DNA from: an uncultured Alkaliphilus sp.
GTDB taxonomy: Bacteria; Bacillota; Clostridia; Peptostreptococcales; Natronincolaceae
Length of the DNA: 64,000 nt
Reading direction: 5' to 3'
Assembly (NCBI GenBank): GCA_938074565.1
Contig: CALJEQ010000020.1
Span: 1-64,000 of the forward strand
Below the pieces are notes generated by a model. That model was not told where the DNA came from. It ran no database searches and saw nothing but the letters and a program-made list of their open reading frames with translations. The translations under genes and the position numbers were made by a program. Positions 511 to 50,197 of this stretch are shown piece by piece (the first letter of the stretch is position 1; each line of letters opens with the position of its first letter).

Positions 511-2541
511 TTAATCAATGATAAATTTACCGATTATTTCCCTAAGCTGAACAGCTAATTTTTCTAGATTTCCCGCATAATGAGTAACTTCTTCTATAGA
601 TGCCAACTGTTCTTCTGTTGCTGCCGATACTTGTTGAGTTGATGCTGACGTTTCTTCTGCTGAAGCTGAAACATTTTCTATCACACTAACTATTTCCTCT
701 TTTTGAGTCACCATTTCATTGGTAGATTGCTTTACCACCATCACTTGATCTTTAACAGATTCAATAGCTTGTGAAATTTGATTAAAAATAACTTCAGTTT
801 CTCGAACTGCTTCATTTTGTTCTTGGACAACTTCTTTTGCATCCTGCATTGCAAATACAGCTGATTGTGCTCTACTTTGAATATCCTCAATCAATTGTCT
901 TATTTCAGTGGTGGCTTTACCTGATTGTTCTGCTAACTTTCTAATTTCTTCAGCCACAACTGCAAATCCCCTACCTACATCCCCTGCCCTTGCCGCTTCT
1001 ATTGCTGCATTTAGAGCCAATAAATTTGTCTGGTCTGCTATTGAAGTTATAGTCTGTGTAATGGAACTAATTGCCTCGGAACTTTCATTAACTCCCTTAA
1101 CAATTTTGCCCACTTCTTCAGCGGCTTCACTACTTTCAAGTGTCTTTTCAATTAACAATTTGACAGTTTGAAGCCCTCTGACACTTAATTGGTTAGTTTC
1201 CTCTGACATTTCAAACACATGGTCTGTAGATTGTTGCACTTCCTCTATTTTATTGGATAAGTCATTTACTTTTATCGCACCTATTTCAGTATCTCTAGCT
1301 TGATCCCCTGCACTTATGGCTATTTCTCCTATGGTTAAAGCTACTTCATTGGTGGCTCTACTGGTTTGACTGGTTATATCCGTTAAAGAAGCAGAAGTTT
1401 CTACAACTGTCTTTGCAGATTGTTTAACTTCCATAATTAACACCTTTATATTTTCCATCATATCATTAAAACTATTACTTAGTTCCCCAAATTCGTCTAT
1501 TCGTTTTGTATCTGTTCTAACACTTAAATCTCCTGATGAAGCTTTAATAAAAGCATCTTTAATATGATTTAATGGTACAGCTATTCCCCTAGCTATGGCT
1601 ATAGCAATAATGCTGGCTAATACAATTGCTATAAACCCACCCATTATAATATAATCCCTTAACGCTTTTGTATCATTAACTAATTCCTTCTCATTCATAA
1701 TTCCTAATATTTTCCATCCAGTTCTCTCATCAGTAACATAACTGGTAAATCTTTTATTTCCTTCGTACTCATATCTAGCAAATCCACTATCATTATTACT
1801 CACTTCTTGCCAAAGCGCCTGTTGAGTCAATACGTCCGTTCCAATTAATGATTCTTCTGGATGAGACATAAAAATCCCTTCACTGGTGGCTAATACTATA
1901 AAACCTTCTCTACCCAAGGTTATATTTATTAACTTCTTAGCCATTAAGTCCATTTCTACATCAAAACCAATTACGCCTACCGTTTCACCATTTTGTACAA
2001 TGGCCTTAGTAACTGATATGGTAATATTACCAGTTATTGTATTAATATTGGGTTCAGACCAAGATACTTGATTCGGATTAGCTTTTGCTGTTAGATACCA
2101 TGCCTCTGTTCTAGGGTCATATCCATTTAGTTTAACAACTTTTGGGTATTTATAAATTTCACCTTTTTCATTTGCTATATATGTACTTATAACTGTATCG
2201 TTATTGTTATTGAAGTTCTCCAACAACTCAATTGCCTTTATTGAGGGATCAATTGATAAATTGTCACTGGAATCTTCTCCTTCAGCAAGGGCTTTTACTA
2301 TTGAATTCACCGCTAAAGCCGATAATTGATTTTCTATTCCACCCATATATTCGCTTAAAGATTCTTTTACTTCCCTTGTAGTTTGTTCTGTAGTTAAAGC
2401 TAGCTTATTATCTAATACATTAAATGCTTTCATATACGATGCTGTTCCCAATATAGCTACTGGCAAAAGAATAACAATAATCATCGTAAACAATAGTTGA
2501 CTTCTTACTTTTTTGTATTTTATATCTTTGTTTTTTTTCAT
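511..2541 (-). CDS. Methyl-accepting chemotaxis protein, dCache type (copy 1)
   Basis: This is a 676-aa transmembrane chemoreceptor that would pass an extracellular ligand signal to CheA/CheW. It has TM1 at about residues 15-38, a dCache_1 sensor at about 40-290, TM2 at about 293-316, a HAMP domain, and a long signalling coiled coil with the conserved tip [16 protein letters not shown] and [10 protein letters not shown]. In the ligand pocket the segment YDPRTEAWY (141-149) has Glu where amino-acid-binding dCache domains have Arg, and the later Tyr/Asp pair is absent, so its ligand is probably not a free amino acid. No C-terminal methylase-tether pentapeptide is visible. It is the last of four tandem paralogues. 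A GGAGGGAAG ribosome binding site precedes the ATG. Confidence 0.97.
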
Positions 2542-2649
2542 TTGACTTCCCTCCTAACATAATCTTTACGTATATTTAAATTTTCTTATTTTACCAATAA
2601 TAACTAATACATTATTCGACAATATTATAAAAACTCCTTTAAAAAATAA

Positions 2650-2680
2650 AAATCCCCAGTCAATATTTAACTAGAGATTT
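2650..2680 (-). terminator. Terminator after chemoreceptor copy 2
   Basis: An 11-bp stem (AAATCCCCAGT / ACTAGAGATTT with G-T pairs) is followed by a T-rich run on the minus strand, 32 nt after the stop of copy 2. Confidence 0.75.
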
Positions 2681-2711
2681 TTATATATAGTTTATGCTAA
2701 TGATTTAATTA

Positions 2712-4733
2712 TTAATTAACTATAAATTTATTAATTAATAACTCCAATTGTTCTGCTAAAATTTTGAGATCTGCTGCATGATGGGTTACTTCCTCCATCG
2801 ATGCCAATTGTTCTTCTGTTGCTGCCGATACTTGTTGAGTTGATGCAGATGTCTCTTCTGCTGTTACAGAGACATTTTCTATTACTTCAATTATTTCATC
2901 TTTTTGCATTGCCATTTCTTCTGTAGATTTTTGTACGGTAATCACTTGATTCATAACAGATTCTATGGCTGTAGAAATTTGATTAAAAATGCTTTCTGTT
3001 TCTTTAACGGCATCATTTTGTTTTTCAACAATACTTTTTGTATCATTCATTGCCCTTACAGCTAATTGTGCTCTAGTTTGTATATCTTCAATTAATTGTC
3101 TTATTTCTTTTGTAGCTTTACCAGACTGTTCTGCCAATTTTCTAATCTCCTCAGCTACAACTGCAAATCCTTTTCCAGCTTCCCCTGCTCTTGCAGCTTC
3201 AATTGCAGCGTTTAACGCTAGAAGATTTGTCTGCTCTGCTATAGAAGTAATAGTTTGAGTAATAGTACTAATTGACTCAGAGCTTTTATTTACCCCATCA
3301 ACAATCTTACCAACCTCACCAGCGGCATGACTACTTTCTAATGTTTTTTCTATTAATAACTTTACAGTTTCCAGCCCTTTCACACTTAATTGATTTGTTT
3401 CTTCTGACACTTCATACACATGACTTGTAGATTGTTTAACCTCATCTATTTTGTTTGCTAAACAGTTAATTTTCATTACTCCTATTTCTGTATCTTTAGC
3501 CTGTTCGCCTGCACTTTTGGCTATTTCTTCTATCGTTAAGGCAACTTCATTTGTGGCTGCACTGGTTTGTTGTGTAATATTTGCTAGTGCTGTTGAAGTT
3601 TCCACAACTGTCTCTGATGACTGTTTAACTTCAATAACTAAATCTTTAATATTTTCCACCATATCATTAAAACTATTACTTAATTGTCCAAATTCATCTT
3701 TATGTTTCAAGTTTGTTCTAACACTTAAATCTCCCATTGAAACTTTATTGAAAGCATTAGTAATTACATTTAAAGGTATTGATATTCCTATAGCTATAAT
3801 AGCGGCTATACCAATGGCTATAAAAGAAGCAATTATACTCCCTATAAGAATAAAGTTTCTTAATGCCTTAGTGTCGTCTACCAATTCATTATTGTTCATA
3901 ACTCCTAAAATTATCCAATCTATGCTATTAATTGCAGTAAAGCTTATAAATTGTTTATCACCATTATACTCATAATTAACAAAACCACTATCTTTTGAAC
4001 TGATTTCTTGCCAAATAGCTTGTTCTGTAAGTGTATTTGTTCCTACTACATTCTCATCCGGATGAGATATAAATACTCCATCAGTATTTATTAGTGCAAC
4101 ATAACCTTCACTACCCAATTTAGTTTTCATTAACTTATCTGTAATAACCTTCATATCAATTTCAAAACCTATTACCCCCAATACTTCTCCATTATGTACT
4201 ATAGCTTTAGCCACTGTAATAGTCACATCACGAAAATATGAGTTAATAGTAGGCTTTGACCACGTTGTAACGTTAGGGTTACTAACAGCAGTTTGATACC
4301 ATTGGGAAGTACTTAAACTAGTATCCCTTAGTTGATTGTTTTGTGGATTTTTATATTCATTGCCATTCTTAGATATAATGAAGGTATTAACCACAGAATT
4401 ATTATGTTGATTAAAATTTTCAAGAAGCTCGAAACCTAAGTTCTTATATTCATCAACTTCGTTTTCTTCTTTAGCAAGTTCTATAATAAAGGAGTTTTCC
4501 GCTAAAGCCGATACTTGATTTTCTATTCCAGCCATGTATTCAATCATAGTTCCCTTAACTTCATTAGTGGTTTGCTCAGTAGTCAAAGCTAGTTTTCCAC
4601 TTAAAATTTTAAAAGACCTACGATAAGAGGCTCCACCAATTAATCCCACTGGTAATAGAATTACTATAATCATAATAAATATAAGTTGATTTCTAATTTT
4701 CTTTGCTTTTTCTTCTTTTTTGGGTTTTGCCAT
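2712..4733 (-). CDS. Methyl-accepting chemotaxis protein, dCache type (copy 2)
   Basis: This 673-aa receptor has the same plan as its neighbours: basic N-terminus, TM1 at about 16-38, dCache sensor, TM2 near 290-312, HAMP and an MCP signalling domain with [16 protein letters not shown]. The sensor has diverged most of the four. The DPRxRxW motif is replaced by [10 protein letters not shown] (137-146), and GFD is GFE, so it lacks the universal amino acid-binding signature. It has its own ribosome binding site (GGAGGTTG) and its own terminator. The family call is secure; the ligand is unknown. Confidence 0.97.
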
Positions 4734-4832
4734 AAAACAACCTCCATTAATATAAAGTACTCTAGGATTACTAGGTCATCATCTCATTTTAACTAACCAC
4801 CACGTTGTTTTTACATTATATTCCAACCACAG

Positions 4833-4907
4833 AGCATGGTATAAATATAAGTGTATAAAAATTTACTTTCAACTATTAATATACCATGCTTATACACAGA
4901 AGTAAAC
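4833..4907. repeat. Interleaved inverted repeats between receptor genes
   Basis: Three inverted pairs occur in the order A-B-C-A'-B'-C'. They are AGCATGGTATA (4833-4843) with TATACCATGCT (4880-4890), GTGTATAA (4851-4858) with TTATACAC (4890-4897), and TTTACTT (4863-4869) with AAGTAAA (4901-4907). The order would allow a pseudoknot rather than a simple nested hairpin. They lie in the 435-bp gap upstream of chemoreceptor copy 2, where I see no gene. Function is unknown. Confidence 0.45.
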
Positions 4908-5110
4908 TTCATTATACAAAATCAAGCCTGTTTTCAAAACTCCGCATCCCTCCAAATAACTTATTCTTGTAATTTATAATAGGTACTTACCTAAATTCAC
5001 AACAGATTGCTAAATTTAGTTTTTTACATTCTACCTTCTGTAATTTGTTTAAATAAGCATCTTAACAATACTTGTTTTTTATTTAAAACTAATATATATA
5101 TACTTTTAAG

Positions 5111-5163
5111 AATAAATAAACCTTCAGTTATACACTTATTGTGTTAACTAAAGGTTATTTATT
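5111..5163 (-). terminator. Terminator after chemoreceptor copy 3
   Basis: A long AT-rich stem runs from AATAAATAAACCTTCAGTTA (5111-5130) to its near complement at 5145-5163. It lies just after the stop codon of copy 3 on the minus strand. Confidence 0.8.
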
Positions 5164-5168
5164 CTTAA

Positions 5169-7196
5169 CTACTCTACTTTAAATTTAGAAATAACTAGTC
5201 TAAGTTGATCTGAAAGTGTCTGTAAATTCATTGCATAGGAGGCTACTTCTTCAATAGCAGCCAATTGTTCCTCTGTTGCTGCTGAAACCTGTTGTGTAGC
5301 AGCCGATGTTTCTTCCGCAGTAGCTGAAACATTTTCAATTACACTAACAATTTCATCTTTTTGCATAACCATTTCACTGGTATATTCCCTTACTTCAGAA
5401 ACTTTTTCTATTACAGAAACAATTGAACTTGAAATTTCATTAAAAATTACTTCTGTCTCTTTTACTGCTATATCTTGTTCTCCTACAATCACCTTAGCTG
5501 CACCCATAGCACTAACTGCATGTTGAGCTCTATCTTGAATATCTATAATTAAATCGCTTATTTCTTTAGTTGCCTTGCCAGACTGTTCTGCTAGTTTTCT
5601 TATTTCATCTGCTACAACAGCAAACCCTTTACCCGCTTCTCCTGCCCTAGCAGCCTCAATAGCTGCATTCAAAGCCAACAGATTTGTTTGTTCTGCTATT
5701 TGGGTAATGGTTTGAGTAATAACACTAATAGCTTCTGAACTTTTATTTACACCTAAAACAATTGTACCTACCTCACCTGCCGAGTTGCTACTTTCCACTG
5801 TCTTTTCAATCAGCAGCTTAACAGCATCTAATCCTTTTTTACTTAATTGACCCGTCTTATCCGATAATACATATACATGATCTGATGACTGTTCTACATC
5901 TTCTATTTTATTTGCTAAAGAAGTTACTTTAATAACTCCAACTTCTGTATCCCTTGCCTGTTCACCAGCACTTTTAGCTATTTCTTCTATTGTTAAAGCA
6001 ACTTCATTTGTTGCCTGACTGGTTTGATTAGTAATGTTGGCTAGAGCAGCTGAAGTTTCCACCACAGTACCAGTTGAAATTTTTACTTCATTAATCAACC
6101 CTTTAATATTTCCAATCATTTCATTAAAACTATCACTTAATTCTTCAAATTCATCTCTTGTTTTTATACTTGTTTTAACACTTAAATCCCCAGAAGCAGC
6201 ACTACTAAAAGCTTCCTTTATCACTTTTAATGGATTAGAAATCCCTCTTGCTATAAATATTGCAACTATAGAACCCAAGACTACAGCCAATAATCCACCT
6301 ATACTAATATAGTTTTTAATGGATCTGGTATCATGTAATAACTCGGCTTCATTCATAATTCCAAGTATTTTCCACCCTGTACTTTCATTGGTAAGATAGC
6401 TTACAAATCGTTGGTTTCCTCTAAACTCATAACGAGCAAAACCTTCTTTATTGTTTTTTACTTCTTCCCAAAAAGACAGCCCTAACACTGTATCTGTACC
6501 AACTAGGCTGTTATCAATATGAAAAATTAGTATCCCTTCAGCATCAGTTAAAGCAATATAACCCTCTCTACCTAATTTTACTTCTCTTAACTTTTCATAC
6601 AAAATATCTAAATCTACATCAAAACCAATTACACCTACTATATTGCCATTATGTATTACCGTTTTAGCCACTGTAATAGTAGTTTCACCAGTAGATGCAT
6701 CTAAATATGTCTCAGACCATACAACCTTATTAGGATTAGCCATAGCTTCCTTATACCACGGTCTTACCCTTGGATCATAACTATCAGGCAACTGAACTTG
6801 TGGATATATATACATTCCACCTTTTTCCGTTCCAATATAATTGTTAATTACAGAAGTATTAGCTCGATTAAATTTTTCTAAAAGTTCCATCCCAATTGAT
6901 GTATACTCACCGTTAATAGCCTCACCCACTGCATTGTCTTTTGAAATTTCAACTATCATAGAACTTTGTGATAGTGCATCAACTTGATTTTCCAATCCCC
7001 CTAAAAATTCCTCTATGGCTACTCCAACTTCTTTAGTGGTTTGACCAGTGGTCAGAGCAAGTTTTTCATCTAAAATACCATATGCTTTACCATATGAAGC
7101 TGCTCCCAAAATACTTACTGGTACTAATATTACAAGTATCAAAGTAAATATCATTTTATTTCTGACTTTACTAAACTTTTTCTTTACCTTTGCCAT
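5169..7196 (-). CDS. Methyl-accepting chemotaxis protein, dCache type (copy 3), probable amino acid sensor
   Basis: This is a 675-aa receptor with TM1 at about 13-35, a dCache sensor, TM2 near 292-314, HAMP, and a signalling domain with [16 protein letters not shown]. Its sensor keeps the residues of the dCache amino acid-binding motif: YDPRVRPWY (140-148), then Tyr164 and Asp166, then the Asp of GFDVD (193). By family knowledge this predicts direct binding of an amino acid or related amine. The gene is monocistronic, with AGGAGGATC before its ATG and a strong terminator after its stop. Confidence 0.97.
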
Positions 7197-7438
7197 AAAA
7201 GATCCTCCTTAGTTTTAAAGTGCCTTTGCCCTACATTTTAGTTCATTCCTTTTTTCTAAGTTTGCTACTAACACCAATCTTCTTTGCATAACAATTAACA
7301 AAAACGTAATAATTGTATTACATCTAATATACCACATTTCTATAGGAAGGTGAAGATTACTCTATTATGTAAATTTTGTATGTTATGTCCAATATTTTCT
7401 AAGTGTTATATTTATGCAACATTTTTTTGTAACAAAAC

Positions 7439-7479
7439 AAAACCCTCCTATTCTATAACATCTAGAATAAGAGGGTTTT
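7439..7479 (-). terminator. Terminator after chemoreceptor copy 4
   Basis: The 17-bp arms AAAACCCTCCTATTCTA and TAGAATAAGAGGGTTTT pair nearly perfectly and are followed by a T-rich run on the minus strand. Confidence 0.88.
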
Positions 7480-7493
7480 AATTATTTATTAAG

Positions 7494-9518
7494 CTAGTTA
7501 ATATTAAATTTAGAAATCATTGACTGTAGTTGATCTGAAAGCTCTTGTAAATTTGTTGCATAAGATGCCACTTCTTCAATTGAAGCTAGTTGTTCTTCAG
7601 TAGCAGCAGATACTTGCTGTGTTGCAGCCGACGTTTCTTCCGCTGTTGCAGAGACATTACCTATTACACTAACGATTTCATCTTTTTGTATAACCATTTC
7701 ATATGTATATTCCTTTACTTCAGAAACACTATCCATAACAGAAGCAATTGAATGGGATATTTCATTAAAGATACTTTCTGTTTCTGTTACTGCTTTTACT
7801 TGTTCTCCTACAATAACCTTAGCTACACCCATTGCATTAACAGCAGCTTGTGCTCGCCCTTGTATATCTTCAATTAACTGACTTATTTCTTTAGTTGCTT
7901 TTCCAGACTGTTCTGCAAGTTTTCTTATTTCATCTGCCACCACTGCAAATCCTCTACCTGCTTCCCCTGCCCGTGCCGCTTCAATAGCAGCATTTAGTGC
8001 TAATAAATTAGTTTGTTCTGCTATTTGAGTAATGGTTTGAGTAATAACACCAATAGCTTCTGAACTTTTATTTACATCTACTACTATGGTACCCACTTCC
8101 CCAGCTGCTACACTACTTTCTGCGGACTTATCAATTAGTAATTTTACTGTTTCTAACCCCTTTTTACTTAACTGATTAGTTTCATCAGACACTCTATAAA
8201 CATGATCTGTGGATTGTTGAACACTTTCAATTTTATTGGCTAGATAATCTACTTTAATAGCCCCAGCCTCTGTATCTCTTGCCTGTTCTCCTGCACTTTT
8301 AGCAATTTCTTCTATAGTTAAAGCTATTTCATTTGTGGCACGACTTGTTTGATTTGTTATATCGGCTAAAGCAGCTGAAGTTTCTACAACAGTACCAGTG
8401 GACTGCTTAACTTCGCTAATTAACCCACTTATATTGTCCATCATTTCATTAAAACTATCACTTAACTCGCCAAAGTCGTCTTTGCTTATAACATTTGTTT
8501 TAACTGTTAAATCCCCTAAAGCTGCCTTAACAAAAGCGTCCTTAATTCTTTGAAGTGGATTTGATATTCCCCTTGTTATAAGGGAAGCAATAATGACCCC
8601 CAGTACAACAGCAATACCAATACCAATAAGAATATAATCTCTTATTGCCTTAGTATCCACCACAAGTTCTCCTTCATTCATTATGCCCAATATTTTCCAA
8701 CCTGTACTATCATTGGTTAGATAACTAACAAACCTTTCATGTCCATTGTATTCATATCGTGCGAAACCACTATGACTTGTACTCACTTCTTGCCAGAAGG
8801 TCTGTTTAGTTACTACATCTGTTCCTATTAAAGTCTTATCAGGATGATAGATTAAAACACCAGCTTCAGTAGCTAAAGCTGCATAACCTTCCCTACCCAA
8901 CTTAATTTCAACTAACTTTTCTGCCAACATGTTCATATCTATATCAAAACCAATAACCCCTAGTATATTGCCATTATGTACTATTGCTTTTGCTGCCGTA
9001 ACAGTATTTTCTCCTGTTGCTATATCTGAATATGGTTCTGTCCAAATAACTTTAGTGGAATTTGCTATAGCCTCCTGATACCAAGGTCTGACTCTTGGAT
9101 CATAATTATCTGGTAAATCTGTATCAGGATACATACCACCTTTTTGTGTCCCTATATAAGTATCAAATACAGAAACATTATGGTTTTTAGATTTCTCCAA
9201 CAGTTCCAATCCCAATGTCATATAAATATTACTTCCATCCAATAAATCTTGATTATCTTTAGCTATTTCAATACTAATAGAGTTTTCAGCAATAGCAGCA
9301 ACTTGACTTTCAATCCCTCGCATATATTCTTCTAACGCTTCTCCTACTTCCCTTGTGGTCTGTGATGTTGTTAAAACCAATTTTTCGTCTAATATACGAT
9401 AAGCCTTTCGATAGGTAGCACCCCCTAAAACAATAACGGGTATCAAAATTACTAGAATCATAGTTACTATTAGTTTGTTTTTAACTGTGCTAGTCTTCTT
9501 ATTTTTTTTCTTTGTCAT
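7494..9518 (-). CDS. Methyl-accepting chemotaxis protein, dCache type (copy 4), probable amino acid sensor
   Basis: This is a 674-aa receptor, first of the four in transcriptional order. It has a basic N-terminus, TM1 at about 14-36, a dCache sensor, TM2 near 292-314, HAMP and an MCP signalling domain ([16 protein letters not shown]). It shares the intact amino acid motif with copy 3: YDPRVRPWY at 139-147, Tyr163, Asp165 and Asp192 in GFDID. Copies 3 and 4 are clearly the closest pair, which suggests recent duplication followed by ligand tuning. The ribosome binding site is AGGAGGC before ATG. Confidence 0.97.
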
Positions 9519-45760: not shown

Positions 45761-46345
45761 CTAAGCCGTCAATATTATATTCTCAGGTGTTTTGTGCTGT
45801 AACATCTTCTTCATTTCTTCCCTTGCTTCTTTAAAGGCTTTTCGCTTTTCATCAGAAAGTCTTGCATCTCCATAGACCCTCCAGCCTTCTACTTTTGTTA
45901 GGCTTAAAGAAGGATGACCAATAAAACCTAAAACATCCTTTAGTGGATAACCTAAAAATATTCCTATTTCATCTGGAATTATTCCATCATTTAAAATAGT
46001 TAGCAAGTGAGTTAAATAAGATTCTAATGTATATTGTTGGGGATACCCCATCATCTTTAAAAATTTCAAGTTTTTACTGTCTTTTAATGTTTCATCTAAT
46101 GCTATCGGATTGTAAAAGAATAGTTTTACACATTGTTGGCAATTCAGTTCTTGAAAGTTGATAAGTTTGGAATTTTCAAATAGATTTTTTACCTTTTTTG
46201 TTACTATGAGGTCTTTTTCTTTCCTTTGAGGAAAACTTAAAATTTCAGCTGGTTTAACCCCCAGTAACACTGGTCCTAAAAGTTCTGTATACCAATGCAG
46301 AAAGTCCTCATCATTATTTAAACAAAAACAATTATTTAGTCTCAT
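45761..46345 (-). CDS. DUF3793 family protein, iron-regulated
   Basis: This 194-aa protein of the DUF3793 family, common in clostridia, has no known function. It has an N-terminal segment ending LLGVKPAEILSFP, a central NCQQCVKLFFYN with a Cys pair, then GYPQQYTLESYLTHLLT, IGIFLGYPLKDVLGFIGH and WRVYGD. The start at 46345 follows AAGGTG by 7 nt; a TTG two codons earlier is less likely. A Fur box lies 26 bp upstream, placing it in the same regulon as feoAB and the SLH flavoprotein. Monocistronic. Confidence 0.88.
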   Translation of the reverse strand: MRLNNCFCLNNDEDFLHWYTELLGPVLLGVKPAEILSFPQRKEKDLIVTKKVKNLFENSKLINFQELNCQQCVKLFFYNPIALDETLKDSKNLKFLKMMGYPQQYTLESYLTHLLTILNDGIIPDEIGIFLGYPLKDVLGFIGHPSLSLTKVEGWRVYGDARLSDEKRKAFKEAREEMKKMLQHKTPENIILTA

Positions 46346-46370
46346 ATCCAAACACCTTCTTTCTCAAACT

Positions 46371-46534: not shown

Positions 46535-46729
46535 CTAGCAACCCCAGAATCTTCTTCCACCAAATAAAAGAACTAATAATAAGAAGAAGAATAATAAGCT
46601 GTCACCAGCATCTGCAAATAATCCACAATTACAGAAAATGATCACTAACAATAAAAAGAAAAATAATAAACTGGTGTCAGTACCACCAAATAAACCACCA
46701 AGCACACTTTTTTTAGCTACGTCACTCAT
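46535..46729 (-). CDS. Tiny two-helix hydrophobic protein, LLFFFLLLV family member B
   Basis: This 64-aa paralogue of the 30816 protein carries TSLLFFFLLLVIIF and DSLLFFFLLLVLLF blocks joined by CNCGLFADAG, with a FGG lead and a GGRRFWGC end. The start at 46729 follows AAGGAAGGTGA; the longer open frame has no ribosome binding site. It lies next to member C in the same orientation, but each has its own terminator and promoter candidate, so they are independent transcripts. Confidence 0.85.
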   Translation of the reverse strand: MSDVAKKSVLGGLFGGTDTSLLFFFLLLVIIFCNCGLFADAGDSLLFFFLLLVLLFGGRRFWGC

Positions 46730-46788
46730 ACATGTCACCTTCCTTATTTTATTCGATATGGATCTTTTGAACTCTTTCAAGTTCAATA

Positions 46789-46816
46789 TATTCTATGTAT
46801 TAATAATTAAAAGTGT
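46789..46816 (-). promoter_or_regulatory. Sigma-K-like promoter of LLFFFLLLV protein B
   Basis: On the minus strand AC (46815-46816), a 17-bp spacer and CATAGAATA (46789-46797) match AC-N17-CATAnnnTA, about 60 bp upstream of the start codon. Confidence 0.45.
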
Positions 46817-46856
46817 GTCATATCTTATTAAGTTAATGAATCTAAACATTTATGAT

Positions 46857-46890
46857 AAAAGGAGTGACTATACTATCAGCCACTCCTTTT
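46857..46890 (-). terminator. Terminator after LLFFFLLLV protein C
   Basis: AAAAGGAGTGACT and AGCCACTCCTTTT pair with one bulge, 5 nt from the stop codon, with T-rich flank on the minus strand. Confidence 0.82.
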
Positions 46891-46895
46891 ATTAA

Positions 46896-47090
46896 TTAAA
46901 AACCAATTAATCCTCTGCCACCAAATAGTAATATTAGTAATAAGAAGAAGAACAATATACTATCTCCTGAATCTCTAAAAATATTACAGTTACAGAAGAT
47001 AATTACCAATAGTAAGAAGAAGAACAATATACTGTTTCCTCCTCCAAATATATTACCAAGTATACCGGTTCCCTGTACTGCTCCACTCAT
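46896..47090 (-). CDS. Tiny two-helix hydrophobic protein, LLFFFLLLV family member C
   Basis: This 64-aa paralogue has NSILFFFLLLVIIF and DSILFFFLLLILLF joined by CNCNIFRDSG, with an FGGG lead and a GGRGLIGF end. The start at 47090 follows GGAGGTG. Leu-to-Ile changes at the same place in both internal repeats suggest that the two halves evolve together. Independent terminator. Confidence 0.85.
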   Translation of the reverse strand: MSGAVQGTGILGNIFGGGNSILFFFLLLVIIFCNCNIFRDSGDSILFFFLLLILLFGGRGLIGF

Positions 47091-47135
47091 AAAATACACC
47101 TCCATGTTAATTTTCTTACATTTTTCAACTCATTA

Positions 47136-49003: not shown

Positions 49004-49798
49004 TTATTTTATATTTGAACTTAAATTAGACATAGCACCTTCTAAATTATCTCCAACTTCTTTTTGTTCTGCTGCTACTTCTTTTAATTCTTCTATTTCT
49101 TTAGAAACATTTACTACTTCTTGTTTTATTGTCTTTAATATATCCCCTATTTGTTTAGTAAATTCTTCACTATTGTTGGCAAGTTTTTGAACTTCTTTAG
49201 CCACAATCGCAAAACCTTTTCCTTGTTCCCCTGCTCTTGCTGCCTCAATAGATGCATTTAATCCTAATATATTTGTTTGTTGAGTAATTTGTCCCATTGT
49301 CTTAATTATTCTGTCCGTCTCTTTAACAAGTTCCATTGTTTTACTAGCAAATTCGTTTAAAGTTACACTTAAATTCATAGTATTATTAATACTAGACTTC
49401 ATTTTATCGATACTTTCTGAAGTTGCTTTGCTTAATAATGCTACCTGTTGTTTAACTTGTTCTTCCATATTTTCCAAAAGCTCTTCTTCTTTATACACCA
49501 ACAACATCATTAAATTAGCCGCTTCACTGGACATTACAATAATGTTGTTTTTATTTAATCGATCTATTTCATTACATACCTTTTGTACTCCAGTTACTTC
49601 TAATATAATATCTATTTCTTTTTGAAATAATAAATCTAATTTGTTGGTATGGAAAACATTTAGTTCTTTAGCCAATTTTATTCCTGGCGCATTATTATCA
49701 ATATCAACAATGCCTACCACATTTATTTGTGGCATTTTGCTTAGGATTTTTAAAATGGAAAAACCACCTTTTCCGCCCCCTACTAATGCTATATTCAT
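49004..49798 (-). CDS. Rossmann-fold / MCP signalling domain fusion protein
   Basis: This 264-aa soluble protein starts with a dinucleotide-binding motif ([19 protein letters not shown]) and the pattern of an NAD(P)-binding Rossmann domain similar to homoserine dehydrogenase or 6-phosphogluconate-type folds ([16 protein letters not shown], up to about 110). A coiled coil and a short MCP signalling domain follow, with tip [32 protein letters not shown]. There is no TM helix or HAMP. It would be a cytosolic receptor sensing NAD(P)(H) or a related nucleotide and passing the signal to CheA. The methylation helices are short. Start follows GGGGGAAAAAAT. Confidence 0.9.
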
Positions 49799-49975
49799 AT
49801 TTTTTCCCCCTTATTACATAAGTAATCGAATGTTTCTATATAACTTCTCTACTTAAAGACCTTATTCCTGCAATAATAAAAACATTCAAAAAATTACCAC
49901 ATTAAACTTTTCCATTTCTTCATATACTATTCTATATTACGATTACCCACTAAAAACAGAATGGAGAGTGGATTT

Positions 49976-50197
49976 ATGAAAAATAAATCTAGAGAAAGCT
50001 TTAGAAATCCACAAGATATAATAGATTCAACTTATAATAGAAGAGATTATGATATTTTAGAAAAAACAATGAACTCTTATGTTATGCCATTAGATATGGT
50101 AAAGAATATTGATGCTTATGGTTCAGAAAAATTTTACCAAGAGGCTTGGGATAAGGAAATCAAAAAATTAACTTCTCCAAATAATACCCTTAGTTAA
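49976..50197 (+). CDS. Small unknown protein (73 aa)
   Basis: The start at 49976 follows GGAGAGTG by 5 nt; a five-codon longer form is less well supported. The 73-aa product is polar and charged (MKNKSRESFRNPQDIIDSTYNRRDYD, later GSEKFYQEAWDKEIKK). A perfect hairpin terminator follows. A CATATACTA sequence lies upstream, resembling a sigma-K -10, but no AC is at the right distance. No family recognised. Confidence 0.7.
   Translation: MKNKSRESFRNPQDIIDSTYNRRDYDILEKTMNSYVMPLDMVKNIDAYGSEKFYQEAWDKEIKKLTSPNNTLS

Follow-up and report, generated by a model that had tools for sequence, protein, structure and literature searches.

A soluble chemoreceptor of an uncultured Alkaliphilus with a candidate NAD(H)-binding Rossmann-type input domain

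What could be sensed by a chemoreceptor that has no membrane helix and begins directly with a Rossmann-type domain? This question is raised by a gene in a contig of an uncultured Alkaliphilus sp. (CALJEQ010000020.1, positions 1 to 64,000; this whole stretch of 64,000 nucleotides is called the window). An earlier note, made from the DNA letters, had read the gene product as a Rossmann domain fused to a methyl-accepting chemotaxis protein (MCP) signalling tip that would report on the NAD(P) pool or a related metabolite. The strand had not been given; we established that the open reading frame lies on the minus strand, with its ATG at 49798, its stop at 49004 and an AAGGGGG ribosome-binding site, graded good, just upstream of the ATG. 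The following features were assigned:

49004..49798, minus strand: soluble Rossmann-MCP chemoreceptor, 264 aa (open reading frame, Pfam, alignment to relatives)
49800..49812, minus strand: ribosome-binding site region, aagggggaaaaaa (sequence reading)
49484..49798, minus strand: Rossmann-type input domain, residues 1-105 (AlphaFold2 model, Foldseek/VIA, profile match to solved acetaldehyde dehydrogenases)
49763..49780, minus strand: putative GxGxxG dinucleotide-binding loop, residues 7-12, GGGKGG (conservation over 100 input domains)
49703..49705, minus strand: D32, acidic residue closing strand 2, signature of NAD type (conservation in receptors and sigma54 activators)
49004..49483, minus strand: MCP signalling hairpin, residues 106-264 plus stop (Pfam MCPsignal, tip and motif analysis, Foldseek match to 3g67)

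Architecture of the receptor and its input domain

The earlier note had described a cytosolic protein of 264 aa that combines a Rossmann fold, a dinucleotide-type motif and an MCP tip, and all of these assignments held in our analysis. The signalling half scored 89 bits against MCPsignal (PF00015; Pfam cut-off 34.6). The tip of the hairpin lies near E191, and residues N181 and E185-G190 are invariant in receptors of the same family. No membrane helix was found in the protein, nor is one expected, since the maximal Kyte-Doolittle hydropathy over 19 residues is 1.29. The N-terminus reads VGGGKGG and fits GxGxxG at G7, G9 and G12. In the AlphaFold2 model the strands of the input domain cover residues 2-6, 26-31, 64-67 and 87-89, and its last helix continues without a linker into the MCP hairpin. 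The whole architecture recurs in nine other receptors from the same family, which align end to end with the window protein at 52-69% identity. These independent relatives exclude an artefact of gene calling, assembly, frameshift or fusion, and a soluble receptor with a Rossmann input domain is very likely.

Taken alone, the window protein reached the Pfam cut-off of no NAD-binding family in the Pfam scan (NAD_binding_3, 16.6 bits), and we therefore examined the Rossmann half through its relatives. The acetaldehyde dehydrogenase model TIGR03215 was matched by the window protein with E=1.5e-5 and 24.5 bits (cut-off 282), although only over profile positions 3-98 of 285; this is not a full-length match, and the catalytic domain is absent. 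A profile made from a diverse 24-row alignment of the input domain (A5) found solved acetaldehyde dehydrogenases with E=4.4e-7 and inositol dehydrogenase with E=0.0016, and 22 of the 24 rows matched TIGR03215. One relative, P0003, exceeded two Pfam cut-offs by itself (GFO_IDH_MocA, 33.1; NAD_binding_3, 28.3 vs 24). AlphaFold2, supplied with four aligned sequences covering residues 1-108, modelled the N-terminus as a Rossmann-type domain (pLDDT 85.8, pTM 0.76). The closest structural match of this predicted structure was acetaldehyde dehydrogenase 1nvm (VIA Z 12.0 over 102 residues, 3.1 A), while GenD2 with bound NAD (6nor) gave a Z of 11.7 at 3.3 A, and the matches agree with a beta-alpha-beta fold. 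The A5 profile, the Pfam scores of P0003 and a predicted model with Z about 12 to NAD-bound dehydrogenases together place the Rossmann match above chance. Among solved structures, the input domain is nearest to the NAD-binding lobes of acetaldehyde dehydrogenase and of Gfo/Idh/MocA oxidoreductases. Likeness to the acylating acetaldehyde dehydrogenases (1nvm, 4lrs, TIGR03215) is confined to this lobe, whereas the catalytic domain of the enzyme has no counterpart in the receptor.

Two groups of known proteins are useful for comparison. The Rex redox repressor also reads NAD(H) via a Rossmann domain, as we propose for the receptor. However, Rex has an N-terminal winged-helix DNA-binding domain, whereas the Rossmann domain of the receptor starts at residue 1 and its output is an MCP. 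The Pfam scan found no HTH in the window receptor, and two of the 24 A5 members matched the Rex model weakly. Among soluble chemoreceptors, TM14 (TM0014) of Thermotoga maritima was the top Foldseek match over the MCP hairpin (3g67, E=1.3e-6). It is likewise an MCP hairpin without membrane helix, but has 213 aa instead of 264, and we know of no Rossmann domain in it. The second match was the YfmS model 9a72. H. pylori TlpD, B. subtilis HemAT and YfmS are membrane-free receptors that feed CheA, as would the window receptor. To our knowledge, none of the input domains described for cytosolic chemoreceptors (CZB, globin and others) is a Rossmann fold.

Occurrence of the input domain and its outputs

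We searched the input-domain profile in 398 genomes sampled across the phylum Bacillota and 198 genomes of the order. The domain was present in 115 of the 398 phylum genomes and 41 of the 198 order genomes, and 64 of the 115 stronger phylum places lie in frames of 215-340 codons, which is the length of short receptors. The 100 distinct proteins that we compared comprised 77 short soluble MCPs, four longer MCPs, 18 sigma54 activators (with one PAS domain, two or none, BkdR-type proteins included) and a single HD-GYP protein. The earlier note had set such short fusions apart from the classical receptor types; as a rarity the fusion can no longer be regarded, short MCPs being the commonest output of a frequent domain. 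A tree of the input domain required four output changes overall, compared to 21.7 in shuffles, on a short alignment that leaves many forks open. Spread by phage or plasmid was considered and dropped, as the viral loci examined and plasmids contained no match to the input domain. Several single cases were also seen. Very short Rossmann-MCP receptors of 224-228 aa have C-arms of only about 50-60 residues (L181, L182, L183), and the Alkaliphilus transvaalensis genome (L044) encodes the receptor twice, with ABC-transporter genes in the interval of about 6 kb that separates the copies. The HD-GYP protein (L172:5899-8169) has the order Rossmann-PAS-GAF-PAS-HD-GYP and possibly links the input domain to c-di-GMP breakdown.

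The sigma54 activators allow a view on the genes that are found next to the domain. Two-PAS members (L164-L168, L170) are encoded upstream of ptb, a Glu/Leu-type amino-acid dehydrogenase gene, buk and lpd, which is the bkdR gene order; gene names at these loci were taken from sequence and from the Bacillus thuringiensis gene order (PMC4428206). In Bacilli, the sigma54 activator BkdR governs the breakdown of branched-chain amino acids, and BkdR-type proteins carry the same N-terminal Rossmann domain as the window receptor, but with a PAS-PAS-AAA-HTH output in place of the MCP. Two papers on BkdR mention PAS domains only (PMC4428206, PMC3734008), and an input domain of this kind is not listed where the sigma54 activators of Clostridiales were surveyed (PMC6615313). 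Genes for fumarase, succinate dehydrogenase and malic enzyme directly follow further PAS-sigma54 activators with the domain (L177, L178, L180), and another sigma54 protein with it precedes an amino-acid dehydrogenase and VorB. Genes of acyl-CoA pathways (ptb/buk, acyl-CoA ligase, MeaB) are found near these sisters as well. The NAD-linked catabolic neighbours fit a redox ligand without proving it, and acyl-CoA sensing fits part of them too.

Literature searches for Rossmann or NAD-binding domains in chemoreceptors yielded nothing relevant by title or abstract, within a coverage that includes few subscription papers. Cytosolic MCPs are a known kind, but the searchable literature appears to describe neither the input domain, nor how widely it occurs, nor that BkdR-type regulators share it. 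The Rossmann-MCP fusion occurs widely in Bacillota, apparently without having been named in surveys. A broader and more tentative idea, to which we give slightly less than an even chance, is that Bacillota have a portable and so far unnamed domain which senses NAD(H) and couples the redox state of the cytosol to at least three outputs. These would be swimming through soluble MCPs, NAD-linked catabolism through sigma54 regulators (BkdR and the fumarase/succinate dehydrogenase regulators) and c-di-GMP turnover through HD-GYP.

Candidate ligand and proposed signalling

Among Rossmann enzymes, the classical mark of NAD(H), as opposed to NADP(H), is a GxGxxG loop combined with an acidic residue that closes strand 2. 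Both elements are present in the input domain. In the alignment of 100 input domains, G7, G9 and T69 are invariant and G70 nearly so, while G12 is absent only in the HD-GYP protein. D32 is found in 81/81 receptors, and the 18 sigma54 activators have 17 D and one E at this position. The invariant acidic residue favours NAD(H) over NADP(H). The aligned acetaldehyde dehydrogenases do not have an aspartate at the position of D32, and for this reason we infer a ribose contact of D32 from the general rule. Reading of the NAD(P) pool, as the earlier note had suggested, is the best-supported hypothesis, with the identity of the ligand deduced from sequence. Binding of a dinucleotide as such appears likely, and a function as NAD(H) redox gauge for taxis somewhat better than an even bet.

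The signalling half differs from most other MCPs of the genome in the length of its C-arm, which comprises 73 aa past the tip compared to about 155 aa. Methylation sites for adaptation are typical of MCPs, though absent in some. Of the 19 other MCPs in the genome, 18 have at least one consensus site, and most of these sites are located 85-126 residues beyond the tip. In contrast, a scan for the strict consensus found none in the window receptor (P0001) and none in 62 of the 77 short receptors. Since the C-arm ends before the usual methylation zone and P0001 has no consensus site, the usual tuning by CheR/CheB is not expected. The protein is best read as a methylation-independent cytosolic receptor that may report the NAD(H) state to CheA.

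As a whole, the data are best explained (probability about 0.6) by a cytosolic chemoreceptor in which an NAD(H)-binding half-Rossmann domain on an MCP bundle acts as an internal metabolic gauge; its ligand, dimer signalling and role in taxis are predicted from sequence and model. The half-Rossmann domain would be derived from, or be close kin of, the NAD-binding lobe of acetaldehyde dehydrogenase or Gfo/Idh/MocA proteins, placed directly on top of the MCP four-helix bundle. The GxGxxG loop would most likely be the binding site of NAD+ or NADH, and D32 would hold the adenosine ribose. Either occupancy or the NAD+/NADH ratio could alter the packing of the two subunits, and this change would be passed down the helix that joins the last strand to the MCP hairpin without a linker, thereby setting CheA kinase activity. 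The receptor would join the same CheA/CheW arrays as the other MCPs of the cell. Because a periplasmic sensor, a membrane helix and recognisable methylation sites are all missing, it might serve as an unadapting internal gauge of the metabolic state.

Rossmann folds can also accommodate CoA, nucleotide sugars or SAM, or stay empty, and the same soluble receptor might instead sense carbon flux by binding CoA or acyl-CoA, a nucleotide sugar, or a small aldehyde or ketoacid. Acylating acetaldehyde dehydrogenase, the closest enzyme family, handles CoA as well as NAD. The acyl-CoA genes near the sigma54 sisters point in the same direction, as do the matches of two of the 24 A5 members to CoA_binding and of three to PglD_N. 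Nevertheless, the classical NAD(H) signature is nearly invariant, 18 of the 24 members match GFO_IDH_MocA, and the domain that would hold the acyl group in the enzyme is absent; we consider another ligand unlikely. An input domain that binds no ligand and is only a cap for dimerisation or docking, for example of a metabolic enzyme, would suit its size of about 105 aa without a second Rossmann half and without a catalytic part. Yet the loop glycines and D32 are kept at 31-52% identity across different outputs, and this invariance makes a bound ligand hard to do without, so that a bare cap is quite improbable.

A further alternative concerns the output, since the receptor could feed a chemosensory pathway for control other than swimming, or a partner other than CheA. 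The receptor gene stands alone, distant from the cheA/cheW genes, and a sigmaD-like promoter was found upstream of the receptor at 0 of 69 loci (2.2 expected by chance), which led us to reject sigmaD control. However, the genome encodes one CheA, CheW genes and three flagellins, and CheA occurs in 72/72 carriers of the receptor compared to 39/72 non-carriers (Fisher p about 1e-12). We treat this co-occurrence as a consistency check, because the carriers were drawn from both samples, order and phylum, and the non-carriers from the order alone, and because the same link would be seen with any MCP. A role apart from swimming, or with another partner, seems even a little less probable than the bare cap. 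In the preferred reading as an NAD(H) gauge, the receptor probably steers swimming by the internal redox state of the cell, as far as its sequence indicates. The link between chemotaxis and energy state is poorly known in anaerobes, and the receptor, being small and soluble and having a defined candidate pocket, opens the question to work on purified protein. Binding of NAD(H) by the domain, if it occurs, would explain what is sensed by a large group of soluble MCPs, and BkdR, a long-studied regulator, would gain a sensor domain left out of its descriptions.

Gene neighbourhood

The window receptor gene is flanked by a TrpR-like regulator and aspartate kinase on one side and by glycogen-metabolism genes on the other. 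Neighbours such as a purine operon and aspartate kinase were dropped as functional evidence, as they vary among relatives. Next to 10 of the 11 receptor copies of the family lies a divergent open reading frame of 78 aa (49961-50197, plus strand) without Pfam match. It also occurs in seven family genomes without a strong receptor match, hence we regard it as plain synteny and not as a functional partner. Outside one family, comparison of relatives revealed no conserved neighbour by which the receptor itself could be tied to redox genes. Within this one related family, seven receptor loci adjoin a divergent Nqr/Rnf operon, which is suggestive of a redox role.

Other genes of the window were noted in passing. 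The interval 46535-47105 (minus strand) encodes two small proteins that lack a Pfam match and contain the hydrophobic motif LLFFFLLLVIIFCNC in repeated form, and small open reading frames like this pair recur near the receptor in relatives. A DUF3793 protein is also encoded near the receptor (45761-46351, minus strand), and a cluster of four full-length MCPs is located at the start of the window (772-8165, minus strand).
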